In this document: in pieces, positions 26,551-49,013 of the stretch | Position numbering within the stretch: the stretch's first letter is position 1 | How the letters are laid out: each line of letters opens with the position of its first letter | NCBI RefSeq assembly: GCF_004300825.1 | Contig: NZ_CP036250.1 | Span: forward strand, 1 to 64,000 | DNA: 64,000 bases | DNA from: Egicoccus halophilus | Lineage (GTDB): Bacteria > Actinomycetota > Nitriliruptoria > Nitriliruptorales > Nitriliruptoraceae | Direction: 5' to 3' | Translations under genes and position numbers: made by a program | The notes under the pieces: generated by a model | The model's database searches: none | What the model was told of the DNA's origin: nothing | The model's input: the letters and a program-made list of their open reading frames with translations, nothing else

Positions 26551-26563
26551 AAGGTTATACCTT
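26551..26563. promoter_or_regulatory. operator-like palindrome A (AAGGTTATACCTT)
   Basis: Arms AAGGT and ACCTT flank TAT in the ligI/hydrolase divergent promoter, 17 bases before the hydrolase GTG. The same 13 bases occur in the ridA/nitroreductase divergent promoter at 37721-37733, and weaker versions at two tctC promoters. Probably the operator of a pathway regulator. Confidence 0.7.
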
Positions 26564-26579
26564 CAATAAGGAGCCGCCC

Positions 26580-27389
26580 GTGGCCGACGACATCCGCAGC
26601 CAGACCGTGTCCATGAGCCACGGCACCACGCGCTACTTCGAGGTCGGTTTCGGTGAGCAGGCCGCGCTGCTGCTCCACGGGGTCGGCTACAGCCCTGCGG
26701 CCACGAGCTGGCTCCCGACGATGGGGCTGATGCGCGATTCGGGGATCCGCCTCATCGCCCCGGACTTCGTCGGGTGGGGCGAGGGGGACGTCCTGGAGCA
26801 GGAGTACTCGTTCGCCTACCTGGTGGACTTCGTCCGCGAGTTCCAGGACGCACTCGGGCTCACGCGGACGCACATCGTCGGACACTCCATGGGTGGATGG
26901 ATCGCGTCGATTTTCGCCTACGAGAGCCCGAACCGCGTGGAGAAGCTCGTCCTGATCGGCAGTGGTGGGATCGCGACCCGCAAACTTGCGTCCATGGTGG
27001 AGTGGCAGCCCCCCACCGAGGAAGAGGTCCGGGCGGACATGGCGTTCCTCGCCGAACAGGACATGCCGCGTCAGGACCTGCTCGACGAGGCGCTGGCCCG
27101 CGCGTCGGACGAGGCCCACATCGGTAGCTACCGCCGCATCAAGACGCACATGAGCGTCCCCGAGACGCGCACTCGATACCAGACCGTGCGGCGACTCCCC
27201 CACGTGCACAACGATGCGCTGGTGCTCTGGGGGACCGACGACGACATCAACGACATGTCGCTGGCGGAGAAGACTCACGAATTGCTCCCGAACAGCACCC
27301 TGCACGCACACCCCGGGCTGGGGCACTTCCTGCCGCAACAGAATCCGGACGTCGTCGCCGACGAACTGCGCACCTTCCTGAAGGGCTGA
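26580..27389 (+). CDS. alpha/beta hydrolase, meta-cleavage-hydrolase-like
   Basis: A 269-residue hydrolase with the catalytic triad of the MhpC/BphD-like group: LLLHGVGYSP for the oxyanion hole, IVGHSMGGWIAS with the nucleophile Ser near residue 105, LWGTDDDIND for the Asp and HPGLGHFLPQQNP for the His. YFEVGFG at the start and NRVEKLVLIGSGGI are common in C-C bond hydrolases. GTG at 26580 follows AAGGAG. It sits alone on its strand next to ligI and under the A palindrome, so a step in the aromatic pathway is likely. A plain esterase or lactonase cannot be excluded. Confidence 0.82.
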   Translation: MADDIRSQTVSMSHGTTRYFEVGFGEQAALLLHGVGYSPAATSWLPTMGLMRDSGIRLIAPDFVGWGEGDVLEQEYSFAYLVDFVREFQDALGLTRTHIVGHSMGGWIASIFAYESPNRVEKLVLIGSGGIATRKLASMVEWQPPTEEEVRADMAFLAEQDMPRQDLLDEALARASDEAHIGSYRRIKTHMSVPETRTRYQTVRRLPHVHNDALVLWGTDDDINDMSLAEKTHELLPNSTLHAHPGLGHFLPQQNPDVVADELRTFLKG

Positions 27390-27410
27390 TCGGTAAGGCA
27401 CCCGTACCAC

Positions 27411-27445
27411 CGCCCAGGGCTGACGCCTTGTCGTCGCCCTGGGCG
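27411..27445. terminator. stem-loop between hydrolase and tctA
   Basis: CGCCCAGGGC at 27411-27420 pairs with GCCCTGGGCG at 27436-27445, followed on the plus strand by TTCGATTTT. It lies between two convergent genes and can end both transcripts. Confidence 0.75.
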
Positions 27446-27526
27446 TTCGATTTTGCGAGGGGGCCGCTGCCCGAGTCGCGCGGCGGCGCCAGCGGGACGC
27501 GACGGGGGCCGGTCGCAGCGCTGGCG

Positions 27527-29038
27527 TTACGACGTCGGGCCCACCAGCTCGGCGTCCCGTCGCCGGTTGCGCTGGTCCGCGTACAGCTTGGCGCCGATGA
27601 CGAGCACCGGGATGCTGAGGATGGCCATCGTCCACGGGCGAAGGAGGAAGGACCATCCGAACAGCCGCTGCGACAGGATGTAGTTGCGCTCGAGCAGCGG
27701 CCCCAGCACGAAACCGATGACGAAGGTCGACCGGGAATAGCCGTAGCGCTTCAGGGCGTAGCCGAGGAAACCGAACCCGACCACGACGAACAGGTCCCCG
27801 GCGTTGAACGATGCCGTGAATCCTCCCCACAGGCAGATGAGGATGATCGCGGGGATGAGCCGCTCACCCTTGACCATGGTGAGACGTGCGAGCGGTATCG
27901 CGGCCCCCAGCGAGAGCAACGTCGCCATGATGTTCGAGATGACGATGAGCCAGATGATCATCCACGTCAGTGGCAGCTGGGTCGTCACCATCTCTGGCCC
28001 GGGGGTGATACCAATTCCGATGAAGGCCGCCAGAAGTATGGCCATGTTCGCAGAGCCCGGCACCCCGAAGACCAAGGTCGGAACGAGACTCCCGCCCTCC
28101 TTGCTGTTGGTGGCGGCATCCGACGAGATGACGCCCTCGACGGCGCCCTTTCCGAATTGTGCGCGGTTCGGCGACACGGTGGCCGCGCGACCGTAGGCAA
28201 GGAATTGCGCTGCGCCCGAGCCCATGCCCGGGATGATGCCGACGATGACACCGATCAGACTGCTGGAGACCGTCGTCTTCCAGTACACTAGGACGTCCTT
28301 CGCCCCTTGCACCGTTCCACTCCACCCCAGACCCATGGAGTCGGTGCTCGCGTCCGCTGCGATGGCCGTCCTCCTGCGGCCGAGATCGATCATCTCGGTG
28401 ATGGCGAAGAGTCCGATCACCACGGCGATCAGCGGGAAGCCCTCGCTCAGATAGCCGGAGCCGAAGGTGAATCGGAACTGGGCGGTCGCGCCCTCGACGC
28501 CGACGTAGGCAGCCATGAAACCGAGCCCCCCCGCGACCAGGCTTCGCGAGGTCTCACCGTCCTGGATCTGCGCGATCACGATGACCGCCACCAGCACCAG
28601 TGCGAAGAACTCGGGCGGCCCGAAGGCGAGCACCATTGGCCGGGCAATAGGCAGCACCGCACCGAGCGCGACGGCTCCGAGGATGCCACCTGCCAACGAC
28701 GCGACGAGTCCTGCAGACACCGCACGGCCGCCCTCGCCGCGTTGCGCCATGGGGTAGCCGTCGAAGATGGTGGCGACACCGGAGGCGGAACCGGGAATGC
28801 CGAACAGCACGCCGGTAATGGTGTTGGCCGTCGAGGTCACCACGATCGCCGCGGTGAGAATCGCCACCGCTTCGATGGGTTCGAGCGCGAACGCGAAGGG
28901 AATGAGGATTGCCAGGACGAACGCACCACCCAGGCCCGGCATGACGGAGATCGAGGACGCGAGCAGGACTCCGAGGGCCGCCCACCCCAAAATGTCCCAA
29001 CTGAGCAGGGCGAAGCCCTCGGCCATCCCCGAAAACAT
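27527..29038 (-). CDS. tctA: tripartite tricarboxylate transporter, large membrane subunit TctA
   Basis: The 503-residue protein has about 11-12 helices and the TctA hallmarks GLGGAFVLAILIPFAF, GIPGSASGVATIFDGYPMAQRGEGGRAVSAG, FGPPEFFALVLVAV, IPGMGSGAAQFLAYG, FGKGAVEGVISSDAATNSKEGGSLVPTLVFGVPGSANMAIL. It forms the membrane channel with TctB and takes substrate from the TctC lipoprotein; the system imports di- and tricarboxylates, including aromatic diacids in known cases. Order tctC-tctB-tctA on the minus strand, with 50 bases between tctB and tctA. Confidence 0.93.
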   Translation of the reverse strand: MFSGMAEGFALLSWDILGWAALGVLLASSISVMPGLGGAFVLAILIPFAFALEPIEAVAILTAAIVVTSTANTITGVLFGIPGSASGVATIFDGYPMAQRGEGGRAVSAGLVASLAGGILGAVALGAVLPIARPMVLAFGPPEFFALVLVAVIVIAQIQDGETSRSLVAGGLGFMAAYVGVEGATAQFRFTFGSGYLSEGFPLIAVVIGLFAITEMIDLGRRRTAIAADASTDSMGLGWSGTVQGAKDVLVYWKTTVSSSLIGVIVGIIPGMGSGAAQFLAYGRAATVSPNRAQFGKGAVEGVISSDAATNSKEGGSLVPTLVFGVPGSANMAILLAAFIGIGITPGPEMVTTQLPLTWMIIWLIVISNIMATLLSLGAAIPLARLTMVKGERLIPAIILICLWGGFTASFNAGDLFVVVGFGFLGYALKRYGYSRSTFVIGFVLGPLLERNYILSQRLFGWSFLLRPWTMAILSIPVLVIGAKLYADQRNRRRDAELVGPTS

Positions 29039-29088
29039 AGGAAGCCTCCACGGTCATTCGGTTCATCTGGATGAACCGCAACGTCACT

Positions 29089-29766
29089 TCACAGGCCGAG
29101 GCGACCCGGAAGGTCCAACAACCCCTCGTAGGGGCGGATTCCTACCCACATGATGAAGAAGGCGTATACGGCCGCACAGAAGACGGCCGTGTAGATGACG
29201 GTGAAGAAGTAACTTTCCTCCGCCTGCAACCGCAGGTACAACAGCAGGAACACGGGAAACCCGAGTACGAAGCCCATGGTCATCGGGATGAGACACGCCA
29301 ACGCCACCCAGACGATCGAGCGGCGTGCGTTGATGCGGTCCCTGCGACGGCTCAGCTTCTCGCTCTCGTCGACATCGGGACCTCTCACCGCGGCCCTGTC
29401 CGCCGAGGGCTGCGACGTCGGTCCGTTCGGCGTTCGGATCGTGCGGAGGTAGCGCAGTACGCTCCTACCGGTCACGGTCGCCAGGATCACGAAAGCGGGC
29501 AGCGCCGTTGCAACGGGCAACAGGCGCGCTTCGGTCGAGTAGCTGAACGACCGAACGATATAGGCGATCACCAGCAGCATCAGGAAGGTGCTGACCCAGA
29601 TGTCCGACCGCGTACCGACGCGGGTGGCACCGATCACCTCTTCGGCTCGGACGTCCACCTCGCCCGGCACCGGCTGGTCCCCTGCCGGGTCCTCCGGGGC
29701 TCCCACGTCACCCGGTTGGCGCACTCCGTTCCGTTGTGGTCCAGAAACGTCATCCGTTGCGTCCAT
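29089..29766 (-). CDS. tctB: tripartite tricarboxylate transporter, small membrane subunit TctB
   Basis: A 225-residue protein with four predicted helices: two after the hydrophilic N-terminal 50 residues (IWVSTFLMLLVIAYIV, LLPVATALPAFVILAT) and two in the C-terminal half (VWVALACLIPMTMGFVLGFPVF, FTVIYTAVFCAAVYAFFIMWVG), the usual TctB layout with a long polar loop between. The sequence is weakly conserved, as normal for TctB; the position between tctC and tctA secures it. The ATG at 29764-29766 has GGGAGAG upstream. The polar N-terminus is longer than common. Confidence 0.85.
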   Translation of the reverse strand: MDATDDVSGPQRNGVRQPGDVGAPEDPAGDQPVPGEVDVRAEEVIGATRVGTRSDIWVSTFLMLLVIAYIVRSFSYSTEARLLPVATALPAFVILATVTGRSVLRYLRTIRTPNGPTSQPSADRAAVRGPDVDESEKLSRRRDRINARRSIVWVALACLIPMTMGFVLGFPVFLLLYLRLQAEESYFFTVIYTAVFCAAVYAFFIMWVGIRPYEGLLDLPGRLGL

Positions 29767-29849
29767 GGCGTCTCTCCCGTCCGCGCGCCGCCACCTGTGC
29801 GGCGGCGGTGGCACGCGACGACTCGCCGCGCCCCACCGCCGCTCGCCGG

Positions 29850-31013
29850 CTAGTCGGCGACGTTGATCAGTTCGATGTACGCGTCCGGGATCGACTCGGC
29901 GACGTTGACGATCAGTGACTGCAGCTCCTCACCACCGATGGCGTCGACGGGACGCCCGTCAGCCTCCATCTGCGACAGCCACTCCTCGTCTAGGATCATG
30001 TTCCGGAAGGCATCACGAAGCGCTGCGAGCTGGTTGGCGTCGAGATCCGGCGGCGCGAAGAGACCACGACCCATTTCGATGATGTTCGAGTGGGTCTCGA
30101 GCAGAAGGCTGCCCTCCTCACCATCGATCAGGTGATCGAGATCGCTCGCCAGCGTGACACGGGAGATGTCGACGACTTCGTCTTCGCCGGGCATCGCGCC
30201 GATGGCCCCGATCTGCAGGATGTCGCCGGCCTGCTCCGCACCGAGTCGCGAGGCCGGGCTCCCGGTCTGTGCATCGACGTCACCCCGGATCACCGCCAGC
30301 TCCGTGGCCGCGCTTCCTTCGAAGCCCGCGACGACTTCGGCGTCCAGGCCGAAGGCGTTGACGATTACCGTCGCATCGACCCAGTCGCCACCGCCGAGGT
30401 CGGTTGCCCCGAAGCGCAGACCCTCCGTCGTGAGCATCTCCTCGAGGCTCTCGATCCCGGTGTGGGCGCCGACCGAGATCGCCCGGGGTTCGGCCACCAC
30501 ACGGCCGATTGCGTTCCACTCGGTGATGTCGTAATTGACACGCTCATCGCCCGTCAGCTGGCTGAGCACCCAACCGCTCACCCGGTTGAAGGTCAACACC
30601 GTGGCATTCCCCGCGTTGGACGTCAGCCAGTTCCCGACGGTCGCTCCACCAGCCCCCGTGCGGTGTGTCACCTGAATCGAGTTGTCGAGTTGTTCCGCCA
30701 GTCCGGCCGCGATCGCGCGCGCGTACGCGTCCATCCCGCCACCCGGATCGACCGCGAGGGCCATCTCGATGTCGTTCTCGGCGAAGAAGGCATAGCCAGC
30801 TTCGAGGTCGATCTCGCCGGATCCGTTCGGATCGTCCTCGCCGGATCCGTTCGGATCGTCCTCGCCGGATCCGTTCAGATCGTCCTCGTCGGTCTGTTCC
30901 GGCTCCATGGTCGCCGCATCTTCGGCGGCACCGTCGGCGTCAGGCTCCGCTCCGCCACATGCGGCGGCGAGCAGCATGACCGCGGAGGCCAATGCGAGCA
31001 AGCGTGGCTTCAT
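29850..31013 (-). CDS. tctC: tripartite tricarboxylate transporter substrate-binding lipoprotein TctC
   Basis: Extracytoplasmic binding protein of 387 residues. A lipoprotein signal (MKPRLLALASAVMLLAAACGG) ends with the lipobox Cys at about residue 20, then an acidic linker built from a 24-bp DNA repeat. The binding fold shows VDPGGGMDAYARAIAAGL, THRTGAGGATVGNWL and DVDAQTGSPASRL, close to the TctC/Bug family where these loops hold the carboxylates. First gene of the tctCBA unit; a degenerate A-type palindrome lies about 150 bases upstream. The ligand is probably an aromatic or other diacid. Confidence 0.9.
   Translation of the reverse strand: MKPRLLALASAVMLLAAACGGAEPDADGAAEDAATMEPEQTDEDDLNGSGEDDPNGSGEDDPNGSGEIDLEAGYAFFAENDIEMALAVDPGGGMDAYARAIAAGLAEQLDNSIQVTHRTGAGGATVGNWLTSNAGNATVLTFNRVSGWVLSQLTGDERVNYDITEWNAIGRVVAEPRAISVGAHTGIESLEEMLTTEGLRFGATDLGGGDWVDATVIVNAFGLDAEVVAGFEGSAATELAVIRGDVDAQTGSPASRLGAEQAGDILQIGAIGAMPGEDEVVDISRVTLASDLDHLIDGEEGSLLLETHSNIIEMGRGLFAPPDLDANQLAALRDAFRNMILDEEWLSQMEADGRPVDAIGGEELQSLIVNVAESIPDAYIELINVAD
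30814..30885. repeat. 24-bp tandem repeat coding the TctC linker
   Basis: Three consecutive 24-bp units (TCGCCGGATCCGTTCGGATCGTCC; third with one change) start at 30814, 30838 and 30862. They encode repeats of GEDDPNGS in the stretch between the lipid anchor and the binding domain of TctC. In-frame copy number change could vary the tether length. Confidence 0.9.
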
Positions 31014-31142: not shown

Positions 31143-31180
31143 GATCTGCATGCAAATCTTCATACCTTTTGCGACTAGCG
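31143..31180. promoter_or_regulatory. tctC upstream palindrome and degenerate operator C
   Basis: GATCTGCATGCAAATC (31143-31158) is a 16-bp palindrome with one mismatched pair. Immediately beside it, AAATCTTCATACCTTTT (31154-31170) matches 12 of 17 bases of the palindrome at 37719-37735, with a perfect right half. This lies 130-170 bases upstream of tctC, and suggests tctCBA has its own controlled promoter. Confidence 0.45.
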
Positions 31181-33437: not shown

Positions 33438-33728
33438 TCAGCGGCGCGGTGCACCGGCACGATCTGCACGACGGACGAACTCCTCGATGGCCGGCCAGCT
33501 TTCGGGGCCGAAGACCTGTTCCACGAGCTGGTGCGCCATTCGGTCGTCTTTCCCGCGCCGCCATCGGTCCTGCAGCCGCCACGCTTCGGCTTTCGACACC
33601 ACCGGTGGCAGGGTCGGCGGCAGTCGACCGCGGTTCTGGGCTCCCGCGGCGAGCAGGTAGGCCAATGGCGGATCCATCTTGCGGCGGAGGCGGTAGAACG
33701 TCATCAGCGACCGCAGGTCGTTGATCAC
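33438..33728 (-). CDS. small protein of unknown function in the LigB operon
   Basis: I do not recognise this 96-residue protein. GTG at 33726-33728 follows a strong GGGGGAGG, and the frame has normal codon bias. It is mostly helical and basic (INDLRSLMTFYRLRRKMDPPLAYLLA, then KAEAWRLQDRWRRGKDDRMAHQLVEQVFGPESWPAIEEFVRRAD) with no signal peptide, membrane helix or cysteines. It lies between the Pht5-like decarboxylase and the SDR on the same strand. The size is near that of LigA, the small subunit of protocatechuate 4,5-dioxygenase, but no LigA motif is seen. Confidence 0.6.
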   Translation of the reverse strand: MINDLRSLMTFYRLRRKMDPPLAYLLAAGAQNRGRLPPTLPPVVSKAEAWRLQDRWRRGKDDRMAHQLVEQVFGPESWPAIEEFVRRADRAGAPRR

Positions 33729-33789
33729 CGAAACCTCCCCCACCGAGCGCCGCCGCAAGTCTGTGGAGACGACGCGCCGGGCGCCTGAA

Positions 33790-34779
33790 TCAGAGTTGCA
33801 GCGTTCGTTCGTCGAAGATGTCGCTGGAGCTCAGTTGCCGCGCAGTGAGCCCCTGCTCATGGGCGTAGCGACCAAGCGTTTCGAGTTCTGGCGCATTGTC
33901 GATCGCGCCGTAGCGGAAGGGATTCTCCGTGATCGGCTCGGGACGGCCCGGTACGACGAAATCTTTGGCCAGTTCGACGGTACGCCGGTACGCGACGTCG
34001 TTCGCACGGAGGAAGGCCGAGTACGCGTTCAGAACCACCCAGGGGTGCGCTTCGACCAACGAACGGCGGATGACAACCGCGTGATTGATGGGGTACAGAC
34101 CCGACTTCTCGTAGTAGCGGGCGGATTCCTCAGCCGCGTGGAACAGCGGCAGGACCTCACCACCGTCGGTAATCTCCCCCCGACTGCGGTCGACGAGATT
34201 TTCGTCCTTGATGTACATCAGGGAGGCGTCGATCGCCCTCTTCTGCAGGAAGGTCGCCATGGTCTCTTCGCGGGGGATCCGGTTGATGACCACACCGTCC
34301 GGGGGCGTGAACCCGGTTCCCGAGGCATGATCCATGCCGTCGCCGCGTTCCATGTACCAGGTGATGTCTCGTGGCGTGACGTCGAAGTGGTCCTCGAGAA
34401 CTCCTCGCGTCCAGACCGCGGCCGTCTGCTGATACTCCGGCACCCCCACCTTTCGGCCCTTGAGGCCGCCTGGGTCGGTGATGCCGCTGTCGGCCCGGAC
34501 GTGGATACCGGTGTGGAAGAATCGCCGAGACGTGAAGATCGGGATGGCGACCCAGTCCAACGCGTCCTTGCCAAACCGGTCGGCCATCACGTACAGCGAG
34601 GCGAGAGACATCTCCGAGATGTCGAAATCTCCGAAATGGAGTTGCCGCCAAAACATTTCCGACGGGTGGACGCTCGAGATCACGAGGTCCATCCCTTGCG
34701 CCTGAACGGAACCATCGGACAACGGTTGCGTCCTCGGATTGTCACTGAGGACGGCGCTGAGCTGCAGCGTTTTTTTCAT
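33790..34779 (-). CDS. 4,5-dihydroxyphthalate decarboxylase-like protein (Pht5 family)
   Basis: Pht5 of Pseudomonas decarboxylates 4,5-dihydroxyphthalate to protocatechuate; the fold is that of periplasmic binding proteins but the protein is cytoplasmic. The 329 residues, without signal peptide, show the family string: VLSDNPRTQPLSDGSVQAQGMDL, FGDFDISEMSLASL, AIPIFTSRRFFHTGIHVRADSGI, GLKGRKVGVPEYQQTAAVWTRGVLEDHF, YEKSGLYPINHAVVIRRSLVEAHPWV and RYAHEQGLTARQL. ATG at 34777-34779. Its place between RraA-like genes and the SDR in the LigB operon supports making protocatechuate for ring cleavage. The exact diacid is inferred. Confidence 0.85.
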   Translation of the reverse strand: MKKTLQLSAVLSDNPRTQPLSDGSVQAQGMDLVISSVHPSEMFWRQLHFGDFDISEMSLASLYVMADRFGKDALDWVAIPIFTSRRFFHTGIHVRADSGITDPGGLKGRKVGVPEYQQTAAVWTRGVLEDHFDVTPRDITWYMERGDGMDHASGTGFTPPDGVVINRIPREETMATFLQKRAIDASLMYIKDENLVDRSRGEITDGGEVLPLFHAAEESARYYEKSGLYPINHAVVIRRSLVEAHPWVVLNAYSAFLRANDVAYRRTVELAKDFVVPGRPEPITENPFRYGAIDNAPELETLGRYAHEQGLTARQLSSSDIFDERTLQL

Positions 34780-34820
34780 GTCACCACTTCCCTGGGCGCA
34801 CTGGATGCCCCGATCTGTGT

Positions 34821-35480
34821 TCAGCGAAGACCGAGCAGGTCCAGCGTGCTGGCGCCCTGCCTGATCTGCTCGACCATCGTTCGTTCTTTCTCGATGCGTT
34901 GCACGGCGGCGTCCACGACCCGATCCGCGTTGCGTGCGGGGACGACGACCACGCCATCCACGTCGCCGACGATCAGGTCGCCGGTGCGGATGCGGGCGGT
35001 TCCGAGGGTGATCGGCAGACGGACGAAACCTGCACTGTCCGGGTCCTTCACGGTCCCGCGGATGCACAACTGCCCCGCGAAGATCGGAAACGGCAGCTCC
35101 ACGAGCACCGCGGCATCCCGGACCCCACCGTCGAAGACCAACCCGCGCAGGCCCCGCGCCATGGCGGCCTCGGTCGTGATCTCGCCCCAGTATCCGGCCT
35201 CCGCAGGCTGCGTCTGCCCGGCGACGAGCACACTGCCCTCGGGGGCCGCCGAGATCGCCCGGTGCAGCCACAGGTTGTCACCGGGGGGGACGGCCACCGT
35301 GTAGGCCGGCCCCCAGACCTGCATGGCCGGGTTGATCGGCTTGATCCGCGCGGGGAGGTCACCCGTCCGGCCCTGTGCCTCGTGCAGGTCAGCCGCGGTC
35401 GGGGGCGGCTGGTCACCGAGCCAACGCAGGTCGGTCCCAAGCCAGCGCCCGCCGTTCGCTTGCGCATTTTGCTCGCTCAT
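34821..35480 (-). CDS. RraA-like aldolase/decarboxylase family protein (copy 1)
   Basis: 219 residues with the RraA/HMG-aldolase fold: a CIRGTVKDPDSAGFV-type loop, GLRGLVFDGGVRDAAVLVELPFPIFA with the Asp-Gly-x-x-Arg-Asp metal site, and IRTGDLIVGDVDGVVVVPAR at the C-terminal side. It differs from GalC at 23956 in the first 80 residues, where an odd segment WLGTDLRWLGDQPPPTAADLHEAQG replaces the usual STVHEA motif. Same operon as the LigB-type dioxygenase, 64 bases after the second RraA-like gene. Possible roles are a further aldol cleavage or a beta-keto acid decarboxylation. Confidence 0.85.
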   Translation of the reverse strand: MSEQNAQANGGRWLGTDLRWLGDQPPPTAADLHEAQGRTGDLPARIKPINPAMQVWGPAYTVAVPPGDNLWLHRAISAAPEGSVLVAGQTQPAEAGYWGEITTEAAMARGLRGLVFDGGVRDAAVLVELPFPIFAGQLCIRGTVKDPDSAGFVRLPITLGTARIRTGDLIVGDVDGVVVVPARNADRVVDAAVQRIEKERTMVEQIRQGASTLDLLGLR

Positions 35481-35544
35481 CCGCACAGTTCCCGTTCTGA
35501 TGTCGTCATGGCTCGGCAGGGCGTTGCCTAGGCGGTCGGAAGCG

Positions 35545-36207
35545 TCAATCGCTGTCGCTCTGGCGGCTCTGGAGCTTGTGGTACTGCGCGCGCTCGCGTG
35601 CCTCCCTGATGGAGTGGCCCTGCTCGAGCAACGACTCGATCTGGGCCTCCGCCTCGTTGATGCGCTTCGCCGCGTCAAGCACCGCCGCCTCGACGGCTTG
35701 GGGCACGACCACCACGCCATCACAATCGCCGACGATCAGGTCGCCGGGCGCGACCTGCACGCCGGACAAGGACACCGGTTCCTGCACGTCCGAGACTTCG
35801 ACCCGGTCCTTGCCCGTGCGCATGGTGCGGACGCGCGAGTACAACGGATACCCGAGATCGACGGCGCGTTGCGTGTCGCGACAGGCACCGTCGATGACCG
35901 TGCCGGCGACGCCTTTCCGCGAGGCCATCTGGGTGAGGATGTCCCCCCAGACGGTGCACGACTCGTCGCCGGCGTTGTCGAGCACCACGACCGCCCCGGC
36001 CGGGACGTCATCGAGGTAGTCGCCCACCGTCCCTGGGTCGGTCGGGCTGATCCGCCGGTAGCGCACGGTGAAAGCGCGGCCCGCCATGGCGACCGAACGA
36101 TCGATCGGCATCAGGCCGAGCGCGCATCCCTCGATGCCTTGACTGTCCAGCGCGTCCGAAATCGTGGCGGTCCCGAACGTCGTCCAAACCGAGAGGTCCT
36201 CGTTCAT
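35545..36207 (-). CDS. RraA-like aldolase/decarboxylase family protein (copy 2)
   Basis: 220 residues with FGTATISDALDSQGIEG, AGRAFTVRYRR, AVVVLDNAGDESCTVWGDILTQMASRKGVAGTVIDGACRDTQRAVDLGYPLYSR, and VAPGDLIVGDCDGVVVVPQ: a complete RraA-fold aldolase signature including D-G-x-C-R-D. The ATG at 36205-36207 overlaps the stop of the LigB-type gene (ATGA); an ATG six bases earlier is also possible. Direct coupling to the ring-cleavage enzyme suggests it acts on a cleavage product. Copy 1 follows it, so the operon has two non-identical members beside galC elsewhere in the island. Confidence 0.87.
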   Translation of the reverse strand: MNEDLSVWTTFGTATISDALDSQGIEGCALGLMPIDRSVAMAGRAFTVRYRRISPTDPGTVGDYLDDVPAGAVVVLDNAGDESCTVWGDILTQMASRKGVAGTVIDGACRDTQRAVDLGYPLYSRVRTMRTGKDRVEVSDVQEPVSLSGVQVAPGDLIVGDCDGVVVVPQAVEAAVLDAAKRINEAEAQIESLLEQGHSIREARERAQYHKLQSRQSDSD

Positions 36208-37172: not shown

Positions 37173-37230
37173 GTTCAGTCTTTCTTCTCGCGTGCGGCGC
37201 ACCACCGACAACCGCCGCGCCGGGTGGCGG

Positions 37231-37822: not shown

Positions 37823-38500
37823 ATGGACCTCACGCACTGCGACCAGGCCTCAATCGACTACATCCTGAGCACCACGCGGACCGTCCGGCGGCGGCTCGAA
37901 CTCGATCGGCCCGTTCCCGACGAAGTCCTGCTCGATTGCCTTCGGCTGGCGGTCCAGGCGCCCTCTGGCGGAGACCGTCAGCCATGGCGCTTCGTGGTCG
38001 TACGGGACCAGGAGCGGCGTGCCGCGATCGGCGCGTTGTTTCGGTCGCGAGGCGAGGCCTACCTGCGCGAGCGCCGCACGGGCGACCGCGCGCCGCGGGA
38101 CGAGGTCCGGCTGCATCGGTCGGTGCGCCATCTGCTCGACACGATCGACCGGGTCCCGGTCCTGGTCATCCCCTGCCTGCTCGGCCGTCCACCCGCCGGC
38201 GTCGGCGCGGCAGCCTTCTACGGCTCGATCTACCCGGCGGTGTGGAGCTTCATGCTCGCGCTCCGCTCCCGTGGCTTGGGCGCCGCATGGACGACGTTCC
38301 ACCTGCACCACGAGCGCGAGGCAGCCAGCATTCTCGACATCCCCCACGACGAGGTGACGCAGACCGCGCTGCTGCCTGTGGCCTACACGGTCGGATCCTC
38401 CTTCGCCGCGGCTCGTCGAACCCCCGCCGAACACGTCACCTACGTCGATCGCTGGGGCCATCCTGCATCGCCTTCTGCCACCACCACACGCGACGGCTGA
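37823..38500 (+). CDS. nitroreductase family protein
   Basis: A 225-residue FMN-dependent oxidoreductase. The N-terminal region ILSTTRTVRRRLELDRPVPDEVLLDCLRLAVQAPSGGDRQPWRFVVV holds the FMN phosphate-binding Arg and the S/N-x-Q-P-W motif; GLGAAWTTFHLHHE near residue 155 is the second FMN contact. Typical for the family that reduces nitro groups, quinones or enones with NAD(P)H. It diverges from the ridA/LigB operon at operator B and is followed after 5 bases by a TauE/SafE-like gene. A role in reducing an enone or quinone intermediate is plausible. Confidence 0.88.
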   Translation: MDLTHCDQASIDYILSTTRTVRRRLELDRPVPDEVLLDCLRLAVQAPSGGDRQPWRFVVVRDQERRAAIGALFRSRGEAYLRERRTGDRAPRDEVRLHRSVRHLLDTIDRVPVLVIPCLLGRPPAGVGAAAFYGSIYPAVWSFMLALRSRGLGAAWTTFHLHHEREAASILDIPHDEVTQTALLPVAYTVGSSFAAARRTPAEHVTYVDRWGHPASPSATTTRDG

Positions 38501-38505
38501 CGCCG

Positions 38506-39306: not shown

Positions 39307-39465
39307 GCCACTGGCCAGGTGGGCTGCCCGTCCCGCACGCTGGATCCCCAAAATGAATATTGTCAGACCATTCGCCGTGTTGCTAGCGTCGTGCGTACCA
39401 GGGACGGCCGTGACCTCGCTGAGGCGTTGCCGCGCTCGTACGACGACCGTCTGAAAGGAAGAGGG

Positions 39466-40479
39466 ATGTACAACGGCAAGAAGGTCTTCGACGTGCATGG
39501 GCACGTCTCCGCCCCGATGGGGGGCGTCGGTCGCTTCAACATGGTGCTGCAGGCGACCAACATGGTGATCAACAACCCCATGGGTGATCCGACCCTGGCC
39601 GGGGTGTTCGGTCTGGAGGACGACGACTGGGACACGTCGGTCGGCAACCACCTCAAGGTGATGGACGAGCGTGACATCGACGTCCAGATCATCGGTCCAC
39701 GGCCCTACCTCATGTTCGGGTGGATGCAGCCCCACCTGCTGCCGGTCTGGACACGGTTCGTGAATGACTCGATCGCCAAGCAGGTCGGGATGTTCCCCGA
39801 GCGGTTCCTGGGTGCCTGCCAGCTTCCGCAGAGCATCACCGAACCGGATGCGACGCACATGCTCGACGAACTCAACCGCTGCGTCGACGACTTCGGCTTC
39901 GTCGCCGCGTACGTGTCGCCGGACCCCACCGGGCGGCGCGACGGTCCCGGGCTCGCGGAGTCCTACTGGGACCCGCTGTACAAGCGGTGCGTCGAACTCA
40001 ACGTCCCCATCATCATCCACGGGACCAACGTGCACGACCCGCGCTTCGCCCTGGTGCCGCACAACTACCAGCTGGGGTTCGTCGCCGAGCAGTACTGGGC
40101 CAACCAGGTCCTCTCGCACAGCGACGTGTTCGAGCGCTTCCCCGATCTCAAGGTCGTGATCTGCCACTGCGGGGGCTCGCTGGACCGCTGGATCCCGACG
40201 GATCCGCACCTCGCGCAGAAGGATCTGTCCGACAACCTGTTCTACGACACCTGTGCCCACGACGTGCACTACCTCGAGGCGGCGATCAAGCAGCGCACGG
40301 TCAAGCGGATGCTGTTCGGAACCGAGGCGCCCGGCTCGGGCAAGGCCATCCGTCCGGAGACGGGGCGTTCCGCCGACGACCTGGTCCCGGTCATCAGCGC
40401 GTACGACTTCCTGTCCGAGGAGGACAAGCTGGACATCTTCCACAACAACCCAGCCAAGATCTTCCCGCAGTTCACGTGA
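39466..40479 (+). CDS. amidohydrolase-2 family protein (ACMSD/LigJ-like)
   Basis: A 337-residue TIM-barrel metalloenzyme. VFDVHGHV near residue 10 is the first metal motif (D-x-H-x-H), CQLPQSITEPDATHMLDELNRCVDDFGFVAAYVSPDP resembles the central strand of LigJ (4-oxalomesaconate hydratase) and related decarboxylases, PIIIHGTNVHDP and VVICHCGGSLDRW give two more metal His, and LFGTEAPGSGKA the late acidic region. AAAGGAAGAGGG precedes the ATG. It may be a second OMA hydratase, a vanillate- or resorcylate-type decarboxylase, or a hydrolase. It ends at a strong terminator facing an MFS gene. Confidence 0.82.
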   Translation: MYNGKKVFDVHGHVSAPMGGVGRFNMVLQATNMVINNPMGDPTLAGVFGLEDDDWDTSVGNHLKVMDERDIDVQIIGPRPYLMFGWMQPHLLPVWTRFVNDSIAKQVGMFPERFLGACQLPQSITEPDATHMLDELNRCVDDFGFVAAYVSPDPTGRRDGPGLAESYWDPLYKRCVELNVPIIIHGTNVHDPRFALVPHNYQLGFVAEQYWANQVLSHSDVFERFPDLKVVICHCGGSLDRWIPTDPHLAQKDLSDNLFYDTCAHDVHYLEAAIKQRTVKRMLFGTEAPGSGKAIRPETGRSADDLVPVISAYDFLSEEDKLDIFHNNPAKIFPQFT

Positions 40480-41781: not shown

Positions 41782-41832
41782 GATCGACGCCTCCGCCTGC
41801 CGGGTCGGGACGGCATGACTCTACGCGCAGAT

Positions 41833-41853
41833 GGACTTTAGAACTAAAGGTCC
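41833..41853. promoter_or_regulatory. palindrome in MFS/monooxygenase divergent promoter
   Basis: GGACTTTAGAACTAAAGGTCC contains the perfect inner palindrome TTTAG-AA-CTAAA and imperfect GGAC/GGTCC outer arms. It is about 52 bases from the MFS start and 77 from the monooxygenase start. It is not the A/B operator, so a different regulator (MarR- or TetR-type) is likely. Confidence 0.6.
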
Positions 41854-41929
41854 GACCGATAGGCTGACGCGCGGGAGCGCGAGTCGGGCCGGTCGGGCAG
41901 GCAGGGCGCGCCGGAGGCAGGAGGCCGCC

Positions 41930-43537
41930 ATGGGGAACCACGATCACGAAGTCATCATCGTCGGCGGGGGCCCGGTCGGCGTCGGGCTGGCCATCGCCCT
42001 CGGCCAGCGCGGCGTCGACTGCGTCGTATTGGAGCAACGCACGGAGCTGTCCCCGATCCCGAAGGGGCAGGGGCTCGCACAGCGTACCATGGAGCACTTC
42101 CACTTCTTCGGCGTCGAGCCGGAGATCCGCGCGGCACGCACCATGCCGCGTGGTCACCCCATCGGCCAGATCACGGCCTACGGCTCACTGATGAGCGACT
42201 TCTGGCACGCTCCGGCCGGACGAGAGGTCGTGCGCAGCTACTACTTCCAGGCCAACGAACGCCTTCCGCAGTACCGGACCGAGGCGGTGCTGCGACGACG
42301 GCTCGACGAGCTGACGAACGTGACCCTGCACCTCGGCGCGGTCGCCACCGAGGTCACGCAGTCCGACGACGGGGCCCGGGTCGAGGTCGAGATCGACGGT
42401 GAGCGCCGGTGGCTCAGCGCTCGCTACGTCGTCGGGTGTGACGGCGGCCGTTCGATGGTGCGTGAGCACGCCGACATCACGCGTCACGGCACCGACTGGG
42501 GCGAACTCGTGTCGTTGATCGTGTTCCGTTCCCGCGACCTGCACGAAGCGCTGGAGCGGTTCCCGGCTCGCTCGACCTACCGGGTGATGCATCCGGCGCT
42601 GCAGGGCTACTGGCAGTTCTTCGGCCGGGTCGACGTGGGCGAATCGTTCTTCTTCCACGCCCCCATTCCTCACGGAACCGACCTCGAGCACTTCGACGCG
42701 CTCGCACAACTCCGCGAGGCGGCCGGTTTCGATCTCGATGCCACGATCGACCACGTCGGGTTCTGGGATCTGCGGGTGCAGGTCGCCGACCGCTACCGCC
42801 GGGGCAACGTCTTCATCGCGGGTGACGCCGCCCACACCCATCCGCCCTACGGCGGGTACGGGCTCAACAACGGGATGGAGGACGCCGTCAACCTCGCCTG
42901 GAAGCTCACCGCCGCCCTGCGCGGCTGGGGCGGTGAACAGCTGCTCGACTCGTACACCGAGGAGCGACAGGCCATCTTCTCCGACATCGGCGAGCGACTG
43001 ATCGGAGGATGGATCGAGCACGATCGCGAATGGCTGGCGACCTACGCTCCCGAGACGCACCCGGACTTCCAGGAGCGGTTCGCCGACTTCGCCGACAGTT
43101 TCGGCCGCAAGGTCTCCACCTTCGAACCGCACTACGAGGGTTCGTCGGTCATCGTCGGCGCCCCCGAGGGCGGGGTCAGCAGCGCGCTGGGAGAACACAC
43201 CTACCGGGCGCGCCCGGGTCACCACCTGCCGCCGCTGCGACTGGCAGACGACCGCAACGTCTTCGAGGCGCTCGGCGCCGGGTTCGCGCTCATCGCGGTC
43301 GGAGCCGCCGATGCGGACCTCGAGACGTTCGAGGAGGCCGCACGGGCGACCGGCACCCCGCTGCACATCGTCCGTGATCCGGCCGGTGGCGAGACGCAGC
43401 AGTTCGACGCCGGGCTCGTCCTTGTCCGTCCCGACCAGTACATCGCATGGACCGGCGACACCGTCCCGGCCGATCCGGGAGCATTGCTCGCCCGCGTCAC
43501 CGGCCGCGGAGCCATCACGACAGGAGCGACGGCATGA
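41930..43537 (+). CDS. FAD-dependent aromatic monooxygenase
   Basis: Class A flavoprotein hydroxylase of 535 residues. It has the N-terminal FAD fold IIVGGGPVGVGLAIALGQRG (residues 9-28), VVGCDGGRSMVREHADI (the DG motif) and NVFIAGDAAHTHPPYGGYGLNNGMEDAVNLAWKL (the GD motif and active-site loop), then a C-terminal thioredoxin-like domain as in phenol and 3-hydroxybenzoate/2,4-dichlorophenol hydroxylases. It hydroxylates a phenolic ring with NAD(P)H and O2, so it could feed a catecholic acid into ring cleavage. The ATG at 41930 follows GGAGGC. Its stop overlaps the next gene (ATGA). Confidence 0.9.
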   Translation: MGNHDHEVIIVGGGPVGVGLAIALGQRGVDCVVLEQRTELSPIPKGQGLAQRTMEHFHFFGVEPEIRAARTMPRGHPIGQITAYGSLMSDFWHAPAGREVVRSYYFQANERLPQYRTEAVLRRRLDELTNVTLHLGAVATEVTQSDDGARVEVEIDGERRWLSARYVVGCDGGRSMVREHADITRHGTDWGELVSLIVFRSRDLHEALERFPARSTYRVMHPALQGYWQFFGRVDVGESFFFHAPIPHGTDLEHFDALAQLREAAGFDLDATIDHVGFWDLRVQVADRYRRGNVFIAGDAAHTHPPYGGYGLNNGMEDAVNLAWKLTAALRGWGGEQLLDSYTEERQAIFSDIGERLIGGWIEHDREWLATYAPETHPDFQERFADFADSFGRKVSTFEPHYEGSSVIVGAPEGGVSSALGEHTYRARPGHHLPPLRLADDRNVFEALGAGFALIAVGAADADLETFEEAARATGTPLHIVRDPAGGETQQFDAGLVLVRPDQYIAWTGDTVPADPGALLARVTGRGAITTGATA

Positions 43538-44472
43538 TTCTCATCACCGGCGGCATGGGCTTCATCGGGCTGCACACCGCTCGGCGGCTCGTCGACCGAG
43601 GCGAGCGCCTCGTGCTGACGCAGTTCCGACGCCGACGGGAACCGGCGTTCCTGTCCGAGGAATTCGGCAGAAGTGTCGCCGTGGAGCAACTCGACGTCGT
43701 GGACAAGGAGGCGCTCGAGGCGCTCGTCCGGCGGCATCGGGTCGACAGCATCATCCACCTGGCGGTGCCCGGGCTGGGTGCGCTCGACGCCGCGGCGGAG
43801 TACCGCACGAACACCGAGGCGCTGCTGAACGTGCTCGAGGTCGCACGCGACATCGGCGGCCGGGTGACGATCGCCAGTTCCGTGGCGGTCTACTCCGGAT
43901 GCGACGACGGGCCGTTCGTCGAGGACCGTCCCCTGCCCGTCACCTCCGCAAGCTCCACGGAGGCCTACAAGAAGGCCGAGGAGATCCTGGGGCTGCACCT
44001 GAGCGGTCCACTCGACATCGACAGCCGCTACCTACGGATCGCCCAGATCTACGGTCCGCTGTACCACAGCATGCGCAATCTGCCCAGCCGTGTCGCCCAC
44101 GCCGCCGCGCGTGGGGCCGCGCTCGAGCTCCATGACGCGGAGCGCGCGAGCTCGGCGGCGCACCGCAGTGCCGATCTGTGCTACGTCACGGACTGCGCCG
44201 AGGGCATCGCACTCGCCCACACGAGCGACCGGCTCAACCACCGGGTCTACAACCTCGGCGCTGGCCAGGGCGTCGCACCAGCCGACGTCATCGACGCCGC
44301 CCGGGCCGCAGCCCCGGACGCCGGCCTCCCGCACGAAGGTGCCGGCACGGCTGACCACCAGCAGTACATGTCCATCGATCGACTGCGCGAGGACACCGGC
44401 TACTCGCCGGCCTTCGACATCGGTCGCGGCATGGCCGCCTACATCGACTGGCTACGCAGCAACGACCTCTGA
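43534..44472 (+). CDS. NAD(P)-dependent epimerase/dehydratase family protein
   Basis: Extended SDR of 312 residues: ILITGGMGFIGLHTARRL at the nucleotide fold, DSIIHLAVPGLGALDAAAEYRTNTEALLNVLE, VTIASSVAVYSG and YLRIAQIYGP. The Tyr near residue 150 sits in AYKKAEE, so the usual Y-x-x-x-K does not read in register, an oddity for catalysis. Its ATG overlaps the monooxygenase stop. Epimerases of sugar nucleotides look like this, but the coupling to a phenol hydroxylase argues for a small-molecule dehydrogenase or reductase acting on the hydroxylated product. Confidence 0.82.
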   Translation: MILITGGMGFIGLHTARRLVDRGERLVLTQFRRRREPAFLSEEFGRSVAVEQLDVVDKEALEALVRRHRVDSIIHLAVPGLGALDAAAEYRTNTEALLNVLEVARDIGGRVTIASSVAVYSGCDDGPFVEDRPLPVTSASSTEAYKKAEEILGLHLSGPLDIDSRYLRIAQIYGPLYHSMRNLPSRVAHAAARGAALELHDAERASSAAHRSADLCYVTDCAEGIALAHTSDRLNHRVYNLGAGQGVAPADVIDAARAAAPDAGLPHEGAGTADHQQYMSIDRLREDTGYSPAFDIGRGMAAYIDWLRSNDL

Positions 44473-45270: not shown

Positions 45271-46824
45271 TCACCCACGGGGTGCGGAGTCCTCATTCTC
45301 CGGCGCCCGGGCCGCAGCTTCGCTCGGCCCGCTTCGGCCACGACCGAACCGTTGCCTGAGAATCGGGAAGGTGAGCGAGAGCACGGTCGTGATCAGGATC
45401 AGCTGCACGAGTGGCCGCTGCAGGAAGCCCCAGCCATGGATGTTGTAGGAGAGCATCAGGCCGCGCTCGGCGAGGGGTGCGAGCACGAAGCCGATGACGA
45501 GGGTCGCGCGGCTGTAGTCGTGCTTCTTCATGAAGTAGCCGAGCGCCCCGAAGATGAACAACACGAAGATGTCGCGGATGTTCAGTCGCGTTGCGTAGGC
45601 ACCGAACAGCGACACGCACAGGATGATCGGGGCCAAAATGGATCCCCTGGTCGACGCGAGTTTCGTCAGCGGCCGCATGAGCGCCATGACGAGACCGGTC
45701 GACAACACGCTGGACAGGACCAGGATGAAGATGATCAGCCAGACGATCGACAGCCCGTCGCCCTCCATCATCGATCGTCCCGGCTGGATCCCGAGCATCA
45801 CCATGGCGCCAAGCAGGATCGCCATCGAGGAGCTGCCCGGGATCCCGAAGGCCAGGGTCGGGATGAACCCGCCGCCATCCTTCGCATTCGTGGCGGCATC
45901 CGCGGCGATCACCCCTTCGATCGCGCCCTTGCCGAACTCGTACTCCGTCTTGCCCTTCATTGCCTTGGCAACGCTGCCGTACGCGATGAACTGGGAGGCC
46001 GCCATGCCGAGACCGGGGAGCAGACCGACGCCCATGCCGACCATGGACGAGCGAAGCGTCGCTGGCCAGTGGGCGAAGACGTCACGTATGCCCTGCTTCA
46101 ACTGGGACCGCTCGCCGGGCGCTGGCGGTTTCGCCGTCGGAATGAGCCGCCCCCCGCGACGCATCAGGGCCATCATCTCCGCGAACGCGAACAGGCCCAG
46201 GAGCATCGGCACGAGCGGCAGCCCGTCCCACAGGTAGTACGAGCCCATCGTGTAACGGGTCGCGCTCGTGGCCGGCTCCAGCCCCATGAGCCCCAGCAGC
46301 ATGCCGATCCCGCCGGAGAGCAGGCTGCGCGAGAACGAGGCCTCGCCGACGTAGCCGATGAAGACGATCGCGACCAAGGTCAGCGCGAAGAACTCCGGCG
46401 GCCCCAGGCTCAGGACGATGGGCCGGACCGCGGGGATGATGACCACCATCGCCATCGCACCGAAGATGCCGCCGACCATCGAGGCCGTCAGGCCAGCCGA
46501 CAGTGCCCGCTGCCCTTCGCCGCGTCTGGCCATGGGGTGGCCGTCGAAGATGGATGCGACACCGCCCCCGGACCCCGGAACCGCGAAGTAGATTGAACTT
46601 ACGGTGTTGCCGGTTCCCGTCGCCGTCGTCGTCGCGACGAGCAGGGCCAGCCCCGGCACGAGGTCCTGCACCACAGCGAACGGGACGATGAGCGCCAGCA
46701 TGAAGGGGCCACCCAGCCCCGGGATCACCGCGATGAACTGCGAGTAGACGATCCCGATCACGACCATGATGAGGACGCGATAGTCGAACAAGAGGCCCAG
46801 GCCTCCCAGCATGGCCTCGAGCAT
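45271..46824 (-). CDS. tctA: second TctA-type large transport subunit
   Basis: 517 residues with the TctA string: VIPGLGGPFMLALIVPFAV, FAVPGSGGGVASIFDGHPMARRGEGQRALSAG, LGPPEFFALTLVAIVF, LLPGLGMAASQFIAYG, FGKGAIEGVIAADAATNAKDGGGFIPTLAFGIPGSSSMAIL. It is a paralogue of the TctA at 27527 but clearly diverged, so the two systems probably take different ligands. The ATG at 46822-46824 is chosen; a TTG at 46830 would overlap the tctB stop. It is followed by a class II aldolase gene. Confidence 0.92.
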   Translation of the reverse strand: MLEAMLGGLGLLFDYRVLIMVVIGIVYSQFIAVIPGLGGPFMLALIVPFAVVQDLVPGLALLVATTTATGTGNTVSSIYFAVPGSGGGVASIFDGHPMARRGEGQRALSAGLTASMVGGIFGAMAMVVIIPAVRPIVLSLGPPEFFALTLVAIVFIGYVGEASFSRSLLSGGIGMLLGLMGLEPATSATRYTMGSYYLWDGLPLVPMLLGLFAFAEMMALMRRGGRLIPTAKPPAPGERSQLKQGIRDVFAHWPATLRSSMVGMGVGLLPGLGMAASQFIAYGSVAKAMKGKTEYEFGKGAIEGVIAADAATNAKDGGGFIPTLAFGIPGSSSMAILLGAMVMLGIQPGRSMMEGDGLSIVWLIIFILVLSSVLSTGLVMALMRPLTKLASTRGSILAPIILCVSLFGAYATRLNIRDIFVLFIFGALGYFMKKHDYSRATLVIGFVLAPLAERGLMLSYNIHGWGFLQRPLVQLILITTVLSLTFPILRQRFGRGRSGPSEAAARAPENEDSAPRG

Positions 46825-46826
46825 GG

Positions 46827-47414
46827 TCAACCGCCTAGGAGAAGTGGAAGGAGCTCACGCGCCACATACCCCCGATAGACCTGGGCACGCAGCAATTGGA
46901 CGAAGAAGAAGTACATGAACCCTGCGGTCGCGGCTCCGACGAACAGCGAGAGAAGACGCCCTTCCCTGCCGATGAGCAGCATGTAGCCCGTGACGAACAC
47001 GAAGGTGGCAGCCACCAGGCCGAAGAGCCAGAACGTGACGAACAGCACGGCCAGCACCACGAACACGCGCCGCTCGCTCATCGCCGGCACGGCGTCGCCG
47101 TCGCTCGCCTCGACGCTGTAGCGGCCGCCCTGGTCGGTCTGCCCGCGCGCAGCGGGACGGGCCCCGAAGGCGTTCACGAGGCGCCGGACATCGCCGACCA
47201 GCGCCGACAGTCCGAGCAGGACCGCCGGCACACCCACGATCAGCGGCATGTATCGGCCGGTGGCGGTCAGTTCGAAGGCGAAGTACACGAACAGTCCGGA
47301 GGCGACGACGAAGGCCAGCGTCAACAGCAACCGCTGGATCGCACCCACTCGTTCGGACTGGTGTGACGGAGGAGTTTCGGACGTCGTCTCGACAGCATCC
47401 GGCTCGTGCGGCAT
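46827..47414 (-). CDS. tctB: second TctB-type small transport subunit
   Basis: 195 residues with four hydrophobic stretches (LLLTLAFVVASGLFVYFAF, YMPLIVGVPAVLLGLSALVG, VFVVLAVLFVTFWLFGLVAATFVFVTGYMLLI, LLSLFVGAATAGFMYFFFVQLL) and a central polar loop, the normal TctB topology. Position between tctC and tctA decides the call. Its stop lies 3 bases upstream of the tctA ATG, so the two are tightly coupled. Confidence 0.87.
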   Translation of the reverse strand: MPHEPDAVETTSETPPSHQSERVGAIQRLLLTLAFVVASGLFVYFAFELTATGRYMPLIVGVPAVLLGLSALVGDVRRLVNAFGARPAARGQTDQGGRYSVEASDGDAVPAMSERRVFVVLAVLFVTFWLFGLVAATFVFVTGYMLLIGREGRLLSLFVGAATAGFMYFFFVQLLRAQVYRGYVARELLPLLLGG

Positions 47415-47609
47415 CTCCCTGCCTCTTCGGGAACCCCAACGACGTGGGGCCGTCTTGATGTACTGGACAGCGTGTGCGTGAAGTGGTTCCCCCGGCGGCC
47501 TCGCCTGGTCGCCGGCTCGGGCCGGGCCCGGCCCCCGTTTCGGCGAGACGTGCTGGCGCGAAAAGAGCGGGCGGTGAGCCGGATCGGCCCACCGCCCACC
47601 CCGCGACGA

Positions 47610-48791
47610 TCAGTCCTCGCCTTCGGCGGTGACGGCGATCAGGAAGTCGCGGTACTCGTCCGGTGCGTTCAGGACGACCTGGACCTCATCACGGAACCAG
47701 GCACCGTTCTGCACGTTGAGTTCACGCTCCTGTTCTTCCATGACGGCGTGGAATTCGGGATTGTTCAGCGCGCGCTCGATGGCCTGTTCGAGGTAGAGCA
47801 GCCGGTCCTCGGGGATGCGCGACGAGGCGACGATCCCGCGAGCCGAGCTGTAGACGCTGGCGTGCGCCTGCAGGATCTCGAGCAGGTCCGGGTCATCGAC
47901 GTAGTCGAACACGCTGTGCAGGGTGTCCGGCGCACCGTCGGGCATGTTCCCTGGCTCGATGAAGGCCAGCACCGGCTGGGCCTCGCCGGCGCGGTACTGG
48001 GCCAGCGCACTGCCGATGCTGCCGGCGAGCATGTCGATGTCACCGGCGGACATGGACAGGTTCATCTCCGCGCTGCTGCCGTAGCCGCTGACGACATCCA
48101 TGTTCAGGTCGAAGACGTCATCGAGCAGCGCCAGCGTGAAGTGCGGTGACGACCCGAAGCCCGTCAGCCCGTAGCGCAGCTGCCGATCCGCCGCGAGCAC
48201 GTCGTCCCACGTCTCGAACGGTCCGTCCTGAGCCACGCTCACCGCCGCAGGCTCGTCCACGAACACGCCCAGCCAGGCGATGTCCTCGGCTTCGAACTCG
48301 ACGGCGTCGTTCCCGGTGAGCAGGTGCATCAGCACCCCGGCCGTCGGGATGTTGGCGATCCGTGTCCCGTCGGGGTTGGGCTCGTTTGCCCAGCGGTTGG
48401 TCGCCAGCATCGCGCCTGCGCCGGGTTCGTTGGAGATGACGACGTCCGCGCCGAGCTCTTCGGCCAGGAACGGCACGAAAGCGCGGGGGTAGGCATCGTG
48501 ACCGCCACCCGGGTCATAGGGCACCACCCAGGTCACCGTGTTGCCCTCATAGAAGGCCGCGGCGTCGCTCAGGTCGATCTCGTCGGATGCCGCGTCGGCA
48601 TCGGCCTCCGGTTCGTCGCCCTCGGGCTTCTCTGCCTCGGGTGCCTCGGGCTCTTCGGCGGCGGGTGCGGCCTGGTCTTCCTCGCCCGCGCCACCGCAGG
48701 CCGCCAGCAGGAGCGCCAGTGCGGCCCCTCCCGCGGTGAAGCGGCCGAGCCTCCGTCGTTTCGTCCCCGACCTTCTGTTTGCTGCTCTCAT
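47610..48791 (-). CDS. tctC: second TctC-type substrate-binding lipoprotein
   Basis: 393 residues. A twin-arginine-like basic start (RRSGTKRRRLGRF) and hydrophobic run lead to the lipobox LLLAACGG near residue 31, followed by an acidic E/P/A-rich linker. The binding domain has VVPYDPGGGHDAYPRAFVPFLAEEL, ISNEPGAGAMLATNRWANEPNPDGTRIAN and IPEDRLLYLEQAIERALNNPEF, as in TctC/Bug proteins. The ATG at 48789-48791 has GGAGTGA upstream. A variant of the A/B palindrome lies about 210 bases upstream. It begins the tctCBA-aldolase operon. Confidence 0.9.
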   Translation of the reverse strand: MRAANRRSGTKRRRLGRFTAGGAALALLLAACGGAGEEDQAAPAAEEPEAPEAEKPEGDEPEADADAASDEIDLSDAAAFYEGNTVTWVVPYDPGGGHDAYPRAFVPFLAEELGADVVISNEPGAGAMLATNRWANEPNPDGTRIANIPTAGVLMHLLTGNDAVEFEAEDIAWLGVFVDEPAAVSVAQDGPFETWDDVLAADRQLRYGLTGFGSSPHFTLALLDDVFDLNMDVVSGYGSSAEMNLSMSAGDIDMLAGSIGSALAQYRAGEAQPVLAFIEPGNMPDGAPDTLHSVFDYVDDPDLLEILQAHASVYSSARGIVASSRIPEDRLLYLEQAIERALNNPEFHAVMEEQERELNVQNGAWFRDEVQVVLNAPDEYRDFLIAVTAEGED

Positions 48792-48992
48792 GGGTTCACT
48801 CCGGGTGGAACGGTGTAGGGATACGATCCACTGCTCACGACCGGACAATTCCGAGCTGGCCCGGTCTGGTCCGACGTCGGCGCTGACGGCCGGGGAGAGC
48901 GCCGCGACCCGCCTGCGGGCCGTCGCGGTGCGGCGGCCCGGGGCACTACGTCCCGGCGGAGCGAGCCCTGCCGGTTCTCCCGCGACCACTCT

Positions 48993-49013
48993 GGTCTATA
49001 GGTTAGACCTTGT
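48993..49013. promoter_or_regulatory. operator-like palindrome D upstream of tctC-2
   Basis: TAGGTTAGACCTT (48999-49011) matches 11 of 13 bases of site A/B. The overlapping GGTCTA-TAGGT-TAGACC (48993-49009) is itself a perfect inverted repeat. The site lies about 205 bases before tctC-2 and touches the end of an IS110 fragment. Confidence 0.6.

Follow-up and report, generated by a model that had tools for sequence, protein, structure and literature searches.

In the FadR (FCD) family autoregulation is usual, and within the FadR subfamily repression that is lifted by a ligand is common. The curated members PdhR, LldR, GlcC and FadR combine a GntR with an FCD domain and bind a GT-N3-AC palindromic operator with A/T-rich flanks; the published consensus is TKGT-N3-ACMA, an A/T-rich palindrome whose GT and AC are usually 3 nt apart, and an arginine at position 28 of the helix-turn-helix prefers a G/C pair (PMC4494728). 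The regulators of the catabolic island described here share these domains and, as predicted, this operator type, and differ from the curated members in their predicted aromatic catabolism targets and in apparently tolerating an A before GGT. Atu1419 of Agrobacterium fabrum is likewise a GntR repressor with one short palindrome at several ferulate-degradation promoters, including its own, but its palindrome is ATGTATACAT, its effector is another one and its target set is far smaller (PMC7797058). GntR1 and GntR2 of Corynebacterium glutamicum are reported to be two paralogous, functionally equivalent FadR-subfamily regulators with common targets (PMC2230225); they govern gluconate metabolism and, unlike the island pair, are not 94%-identical tandem twins in a catabolic island. 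A further counterpart is found on plasmid 2 of Arthrobacter sp. FB24 and on pASPHE302 of P. phenanthrenivorans, where a 45%-identical FadR/GntR regulator is encoded with an MFS gene. These clusters resemble the island in that they combine TctABC with a class II aldolase and an operon for an HcaE/F-like dioxygenase. Sites precede the operon of the MFS gene and regulator, that of the dioxygenase (AAATGGTCTAACCATTA) and tctA, with strong matches alone being relied on, since a reversed control gave 2-3 matches at low threshold. In contrast to the island, these clusters are smaller, plasmid-borne and have a single regulator. A literature search found no study of this plasmid regulator, no described target set for the actinobacterial regulator subfamily considered here, and no actinobacterial FCD regulator that controls aromatic catabolism.

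The window, i.e., the whole stretch of DNA analysed, comprises the first 64 kb of a genome that consists of one 3.98-Mb contig; its features and the regulator gene just beyond it are collected in Table 1. A search of the window gives exact copies of AAGGTTATACCTT at 26551-26563 and 37721-37733, the second of which extends to AAAAGGTTATACCTTTT (37719-37735), and TAGGTTAGACCTT at 48999-49011 agrees with AAGGTTATACCTT in 11 of 13 positions; all of these had been reported, at the same positions, in the first-pass annotation. Its fourth site, AAATCTTCATACCTTTT at 31154, is correctly located, whereas its agreement with the long form is 13 of 17 by hand count rather than 12 of 17, with one good half-site kept and the other lost. 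With up to 2 mismatches allowed, shuffles predict 0.05 matches in the window, and 3 are present. Two inverted 5-bp arms, AAGGT and ACCTT, enclose TAT in the 13-mer (5+3+5), and its three central bases are asymmetric. Exact symmetry of the whole 13-mer was dropped as a description because the centre is not palindromic, and a test of half-sites and spacers was consequently used instead.

Table 1. Predicted operators, predicted target units and regulator genes in and next to the window (17-mer or 13-mer limits for operators)
Feature	Position	Strand	Remark
Predicted operator AAGGTTATACCTT	26551-26563	+	between divergent LigI-like amidohydrolase and alpha/beta hydrolase; matrix score 19.9
Predicted operator AAATCTTCATACCTTTT, weak	31154-31170	+	upstream of tctC-1; one good half-site; matrix score 13.4
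Predicted operator AAAAGGTTATACCTTTT	37719-37735	+	between divergent ridA and nitroreductase; matrix score 21.1
Predicted operator ATATTGTCAGACCATTC	39357-39373	+	amidohydrolase leader; matrix score 18.1
Predicted operator TAAAGGTCCGACCGATA	41845-41861	+	FAD aromatic hydroxylase leader; matrix score 14.9
Predicted operator TAGGTTAGACCTT	48999-49011	+	upstream of tctC-2; matrix score 17.2
Target unit: LigI-like amidohydrolase (-), alpha/beta hydrolase (+)	25585-27389
LigI-like amidohydrolase	25585-26508	-
alpha/beta hydrolase	26580-27389	+
Target unit: TctA-1, TctB-1, TctC-1 transporter	27527-31013	-
tctC-1	29850-31013	-
Target unit: LigB-type dioxygenase and ridA (-), nitroreductase (+)	36204-38500
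ridA	37231-37620	-
nitroreductase	37823-38500	+
Target unit: amidohydrolase	39319-40479	+	likely true start about 39466 (domain position)
Target unit: FAD aromatic hydroxylase and NAD-dependent epimerase/dehydratase	41831-44472	+
FAD aromatic hydroxylase	41831-43537	+	likely true start about 41930
Target unit: TctA-2, TctB-2, TctC-2 transporter	45271-48989	-
tctC-2	47610-48989	-	likely true start about 48791, signal-lipoprotein Met
GntR-FCD (FadR-subfamily) regulator, copy 1	63386-64159	-	window holds 63386-64000
GntR-FCD regulator, copy 2	64740-65663		94% identical to copy 1

Counted by pattern search over the whole genome, AAGGTTATACCTT occurs exactly twice against 0.006 copies expected from base composition, which bears out the earlier judgement that the repeat is unlikely by chance. 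Up to 2 mismatches, four places are found, all between 26 and 74 kb, the fourth being ATGGTTATACCTT at 74026, just past the window end; the reversed control pattern has no match genome-wide at this threshold. Up to 3 mismatches, 8 of the 18 distinct places fall in the first 100 kb, and 5 of 15 still do so when the three sites already named are left aside (P about 2e-5). Eight places fit the general form WWGGTNNNACCWW; seven of these (26551, 37721, 48999, 74026, 75913, 94408 and 105311) lie within the first 106 kb. As had been proposed, the island sites sit in leaders and divergent gaps, once start codons are set by domain position, and many copies inside unrelated coding DNA, the finding that had been named as speaking against a regulon, do not occur.

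Three further genomes of the genus show the same confinement of WWGGTNNNACCWW to islands with FCD regulators: 8 of 9 places lie within one 41-kb stretch in G010, all 7 within one 54-kb stretch in G011, and 8 of 13 on one contig of G009, with 2 more on another, each site-bearing stretch carrying FCD-GntR genes. Homologous targets retain the site as well. It is kept by the aromatic hydroxylase homologues (59-63% identical) in G000, G010 and G011, with a leader site in G010 and G011, by LigXa genes in the same three genomes, and by TctC in G009. Among 35 genomes surveyed in the family, a close regulator homologue is present only in two genera (g1 and g4), where the sites cluster mainly on the contig of the regulator; the family genomes without a homologue show scattered matches, mostly with GC-rich centres, and no clustered sites.

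An independent test drew on 80 loci, 1.43 Mb in all, of Streptomyces, Mycolicibacterium, Blastococcus, Pseudonocardia and other actinobacteria; a single search by homology to the FCD alignment, made without use of the motif, had fetched them. Against all 30 letter permutations of the half-site combined with spacers of 0-8 (270 controls), WWGGT-3-ACCWW ranked first, with 82 matches versus a mean of 5.9, followed by WTGGW at spacer 3 with 81. The spacing is strict: WWGGT gives 82 matches at spacer 3, 1 at spacer 2 and 3 at spacer 4, so that an operator of the HutC subfamily, in which GT and AC are 4 nt apart in most sites, can be set aside. Of the 82 matches, 69 fall in leaders, against a 31% share of leaders in the sequence. 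Furthermore, with up to one mismatch the 400 bp ahead of the regulator gene hold the motif at 1.39/kb, a ten-fold enrichment over the 0.145/kb elsewhere, and inside that gene it is found at 0.018/kb, while two composition-matched control palindromes reach 0.10 and 0.25/kb in the same upstream regions. An observed/expected ranking of all 4-mer palindromes was discarded as uninformative without composition-matched permutations, being dominated by codon-periodic words such as TCGA and GTCG. These counts also bear on the reading of the sites as promoter elements (an extended -10 or start-site motif) or as AT-rich words arisen by chance, in either case without a binding protein of their own. The core TATACC does resemble a -10 hexamer and is located where promoters are expected; nevertheless, 0.006 exact copies expected genome-wide, inverted half-sites at a fixed 3-bp spacing in other genera, and confinement to islands rather than to promoters generally make this reading very improbable, and for the cluster as a whole it is already contradicted. 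Single weak sites, namely 31154 and 77272, could be chance.

A matrix drawn from other-genus loci only (the genus locus L057 being left out), with underlying sites that were pattern-selected and a scan covering the fetched regions, has the consensus WTGGTNNNACCAW and finds 13 sites in this genome between 26 and 105 kb (17-mer starts 26549, 31154, 37719, 39357, 41845, 48997, 74024, 75911, 77272, 84467, 94406, 105309 and 105408). At a score of at least 12, the genus islands contain 0.56 sites/kb in leaders against 0.03/kb in coding DNA; in the comparison regions coding DNA yields none and leaders two, which are 105309 and 105408. The matrix lends moderate independent support to 31154 as a putative operator, the weakest of the four sites first proposed. 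All four are among the matrix sites, and the proposed regulon grows to 13 predicted sites reaching past the window.

The target units of the window, from the LigI-like amidohydrolase/alpha-beta hydrolase pair through ridA with LigB dioxygenase/nitroreductase, the amidohydrolase and the FAD aromatic hydroxylase to TctABC-1 and TctABC-2, were assigned by Pfam. Further predicted targets, also from Pfam, are three Rieske oxygenases of the LigXa type, with an aldo-keto reductase and TctABC-3 after the first of them; an MFS gene with an aldo-keto reductase; an ABC transporter; and the RraA-like aldolase/LigB dioxygenase pair at 105 kb. In this last, divergent pair (104583-106701) two predicted operators lie between or at the genes, and the predicted regulon thus extends 41 kb beyond the window. 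Taking into account what is known of these families, the LigXa, LigB, LigI-like, GFO/IDH and RraA content points to degradation of aromatic acids akin to the protocatechuate/gallate 4,5-cleavage route. No Pfam match is obtained for TctC-1, which is homologous to TctC-2 (28%) and to the TctC of G009 (34%); judged by these homologies, it is a solute-binding protein so divergent that the profile misses it. Long open reading frames on both strands at 33721-36258 likewise have no Pfam match. Two LigXa-type genes (72652-73986 and 74506-75846) are 97.5% identical, which by this measure is a second recent duplication within the island. A phage-type integrase and ISL3 and rve/IS3-type transposases are found beside and inside the island (13341-18015 and 49500-52024), two of them overlapping on opposite strands at 49811-51650; their presence fits acquisition by transfer.

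The candidate regulator had been sought in the FCD gene at 63386, and this assignment is well supported by the comparisons above, with the addition of a tandem twin. Five genes with an FCD domain and twelve with a GntR domain (ten outside the island pair) score over the profile cut-offs in this genome, and the island holds only two of the FCD genes (63386-64159 and 64740-65663). Both copies have an N-terminal GntR winged helix-turn-helix (PF00392, E 4.5e-17 and 1.7e-18) and a C-terminal helical FCD domain (PF07729, E 7.6e-24 and 2.5e-24). The recognition helix GVSRVTVRDALR occurs in this genome only in these two proteins, the other three FCDs being different, and it is common to most other island FCDs of the genus, with the variants GVSRGSVRDALR in G011_C8_212 and GVSRSSVRDGVR in G010_C6. 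The best solved relatives are 2di3, 6on4 (NanR) and 9jpj (PdhR), 2di3 being LldR of C. glutamicum (PMC4494728). Orthology with any curated member was rejected because the scores lie far under the equivalog cut-offs, as for NanR (117.5 bits versus a cut-off of 260), PdhR (103 versus 330) and LldR (91.5 versus 311). A NanR-type operator was rejected as well: that operator is reported as direct repeats of GGTATA (PMC8012715), whereas the island sites are inverted repeats.

Judged from the comparison with relatives, it is very probable that the palindrome is the landing site of these two near-identical GntR/FadR-type regulators of the island. Sites and proteins fit the published operator pattern of the FadR subfamily (PMC4494728): GT and AC are 3 nt apart, and several sites have A for the T of TKGT. 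Two observations run counter to this assignment. In the AAGGT sites GGT is preceded by an A, at variance with TKGT, an A that is present also in other loci with the same regulator subfamily, and a clear own-gene site is missing for both copies, whose leaders have a half-site at best in this genome, unlike those of relatives. The word AAAGTTACACCCT at 64297 was considered, on its mismatch count, as an autoregulatory site and rejected, with a score of 4.6 in the independent matrix and no conservation in the duplicated leader. This missing site, together with the ten further GntR-domain genes, would favour operators of a regulator outside the FCD pair, either another GntR protein or one of another family, beside which the nearby FCD genes are incidental. 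Such a regulator is nevertheless unlikely, because the motif was recovered around homologues of this FCD by a motif-blind search and upstream of their genes, family genomes without a homologue have no clustered sites, and the other FCDs of this genome have different recognition helices.

The regulator gene and its leader form a tandem duplication of about 930 bp (63377-64308 and 64732-65661) with 95% DNA identity, which by that identity is recent. The earlier proposal of a regulon run by one protein is well supported as to the regulon, given island-confined sites, a motif that follows the regulator homologues across genera and the match to the FadR-subfamily operator (PMC4494728), and is amended as to the one protein, there being a 94%-identical twin and maybe two proteins at work. 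The twins differ mainly in the FCD (ligand) domain and in the promoter end of the leader. They may divide sites or ligands between them, giving two overlapping regulons with different inducers, a rather doubtful arrangement: the location of the differences speaks for it, as do relatives in which a single island holds 3-4 diverged paralogues whose helices are nearly the same, but 94% identity and a recent duplication make redundancy as likely, and GntR1 and GntR2 of C. glutamicum are reported as functionally equivalent (PMC2230225).

Collectively, the reading in which the palindrome is the operator of both island FadR-subfamily regulators, a dimer of which would repress about 13 sites until released by an aromatic acid or pathway intermediate, is held with high confidence from the computed patterns. 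The dimer would read one GGT half-site on each strand, with three bases between the two; as long as the FCD domain is without inducer, it would stay on the promoters of about 13 sites over 26-105 kb and repress them. An aromatic acid or intermediate of the pathway would release it, and release would turn on uptake (TctABC, MFS and ABC transporters) and degradation (Rieske oxygenases, hydroxylase, LigB dioxygenases, amidohydrolases and aldolase). We infer binding itself, the copy or copies that bind, repression rather than activation, and the ligand. At 26551 the operator ends 16 nt ahead of the alpha/beta hydrolase start codon, and for that unit steric block is thus favoured over activation.

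The regulator and its operators are, as predicted from sequence, a new regulon of a known kind, that of the FadR subfamily. It would join an 80-kb, mostly unassigned set of aromatic-catabolic genes, so that genes of unknown role may be placed in a common pathway, and it supplies a searchable operator for this regulator subfamily across Actinomycetota, from Streptomyces, Mycolicibacterium and Blastococcus to the Arthrobacter plasmids. Each of the genus relatives has 3-4 diverged FCD paralogues with nearly the same helix and about 43-54% identity to copy 1. It is a tentative possibility that in this genus several such paralogues with diverged ligand domains, here the two near-identical copies, converge on one common operator and feed several aromatic signals into one island-wide regulon; if true, this would be a design of many sensors and one operator for large catabolic islands.
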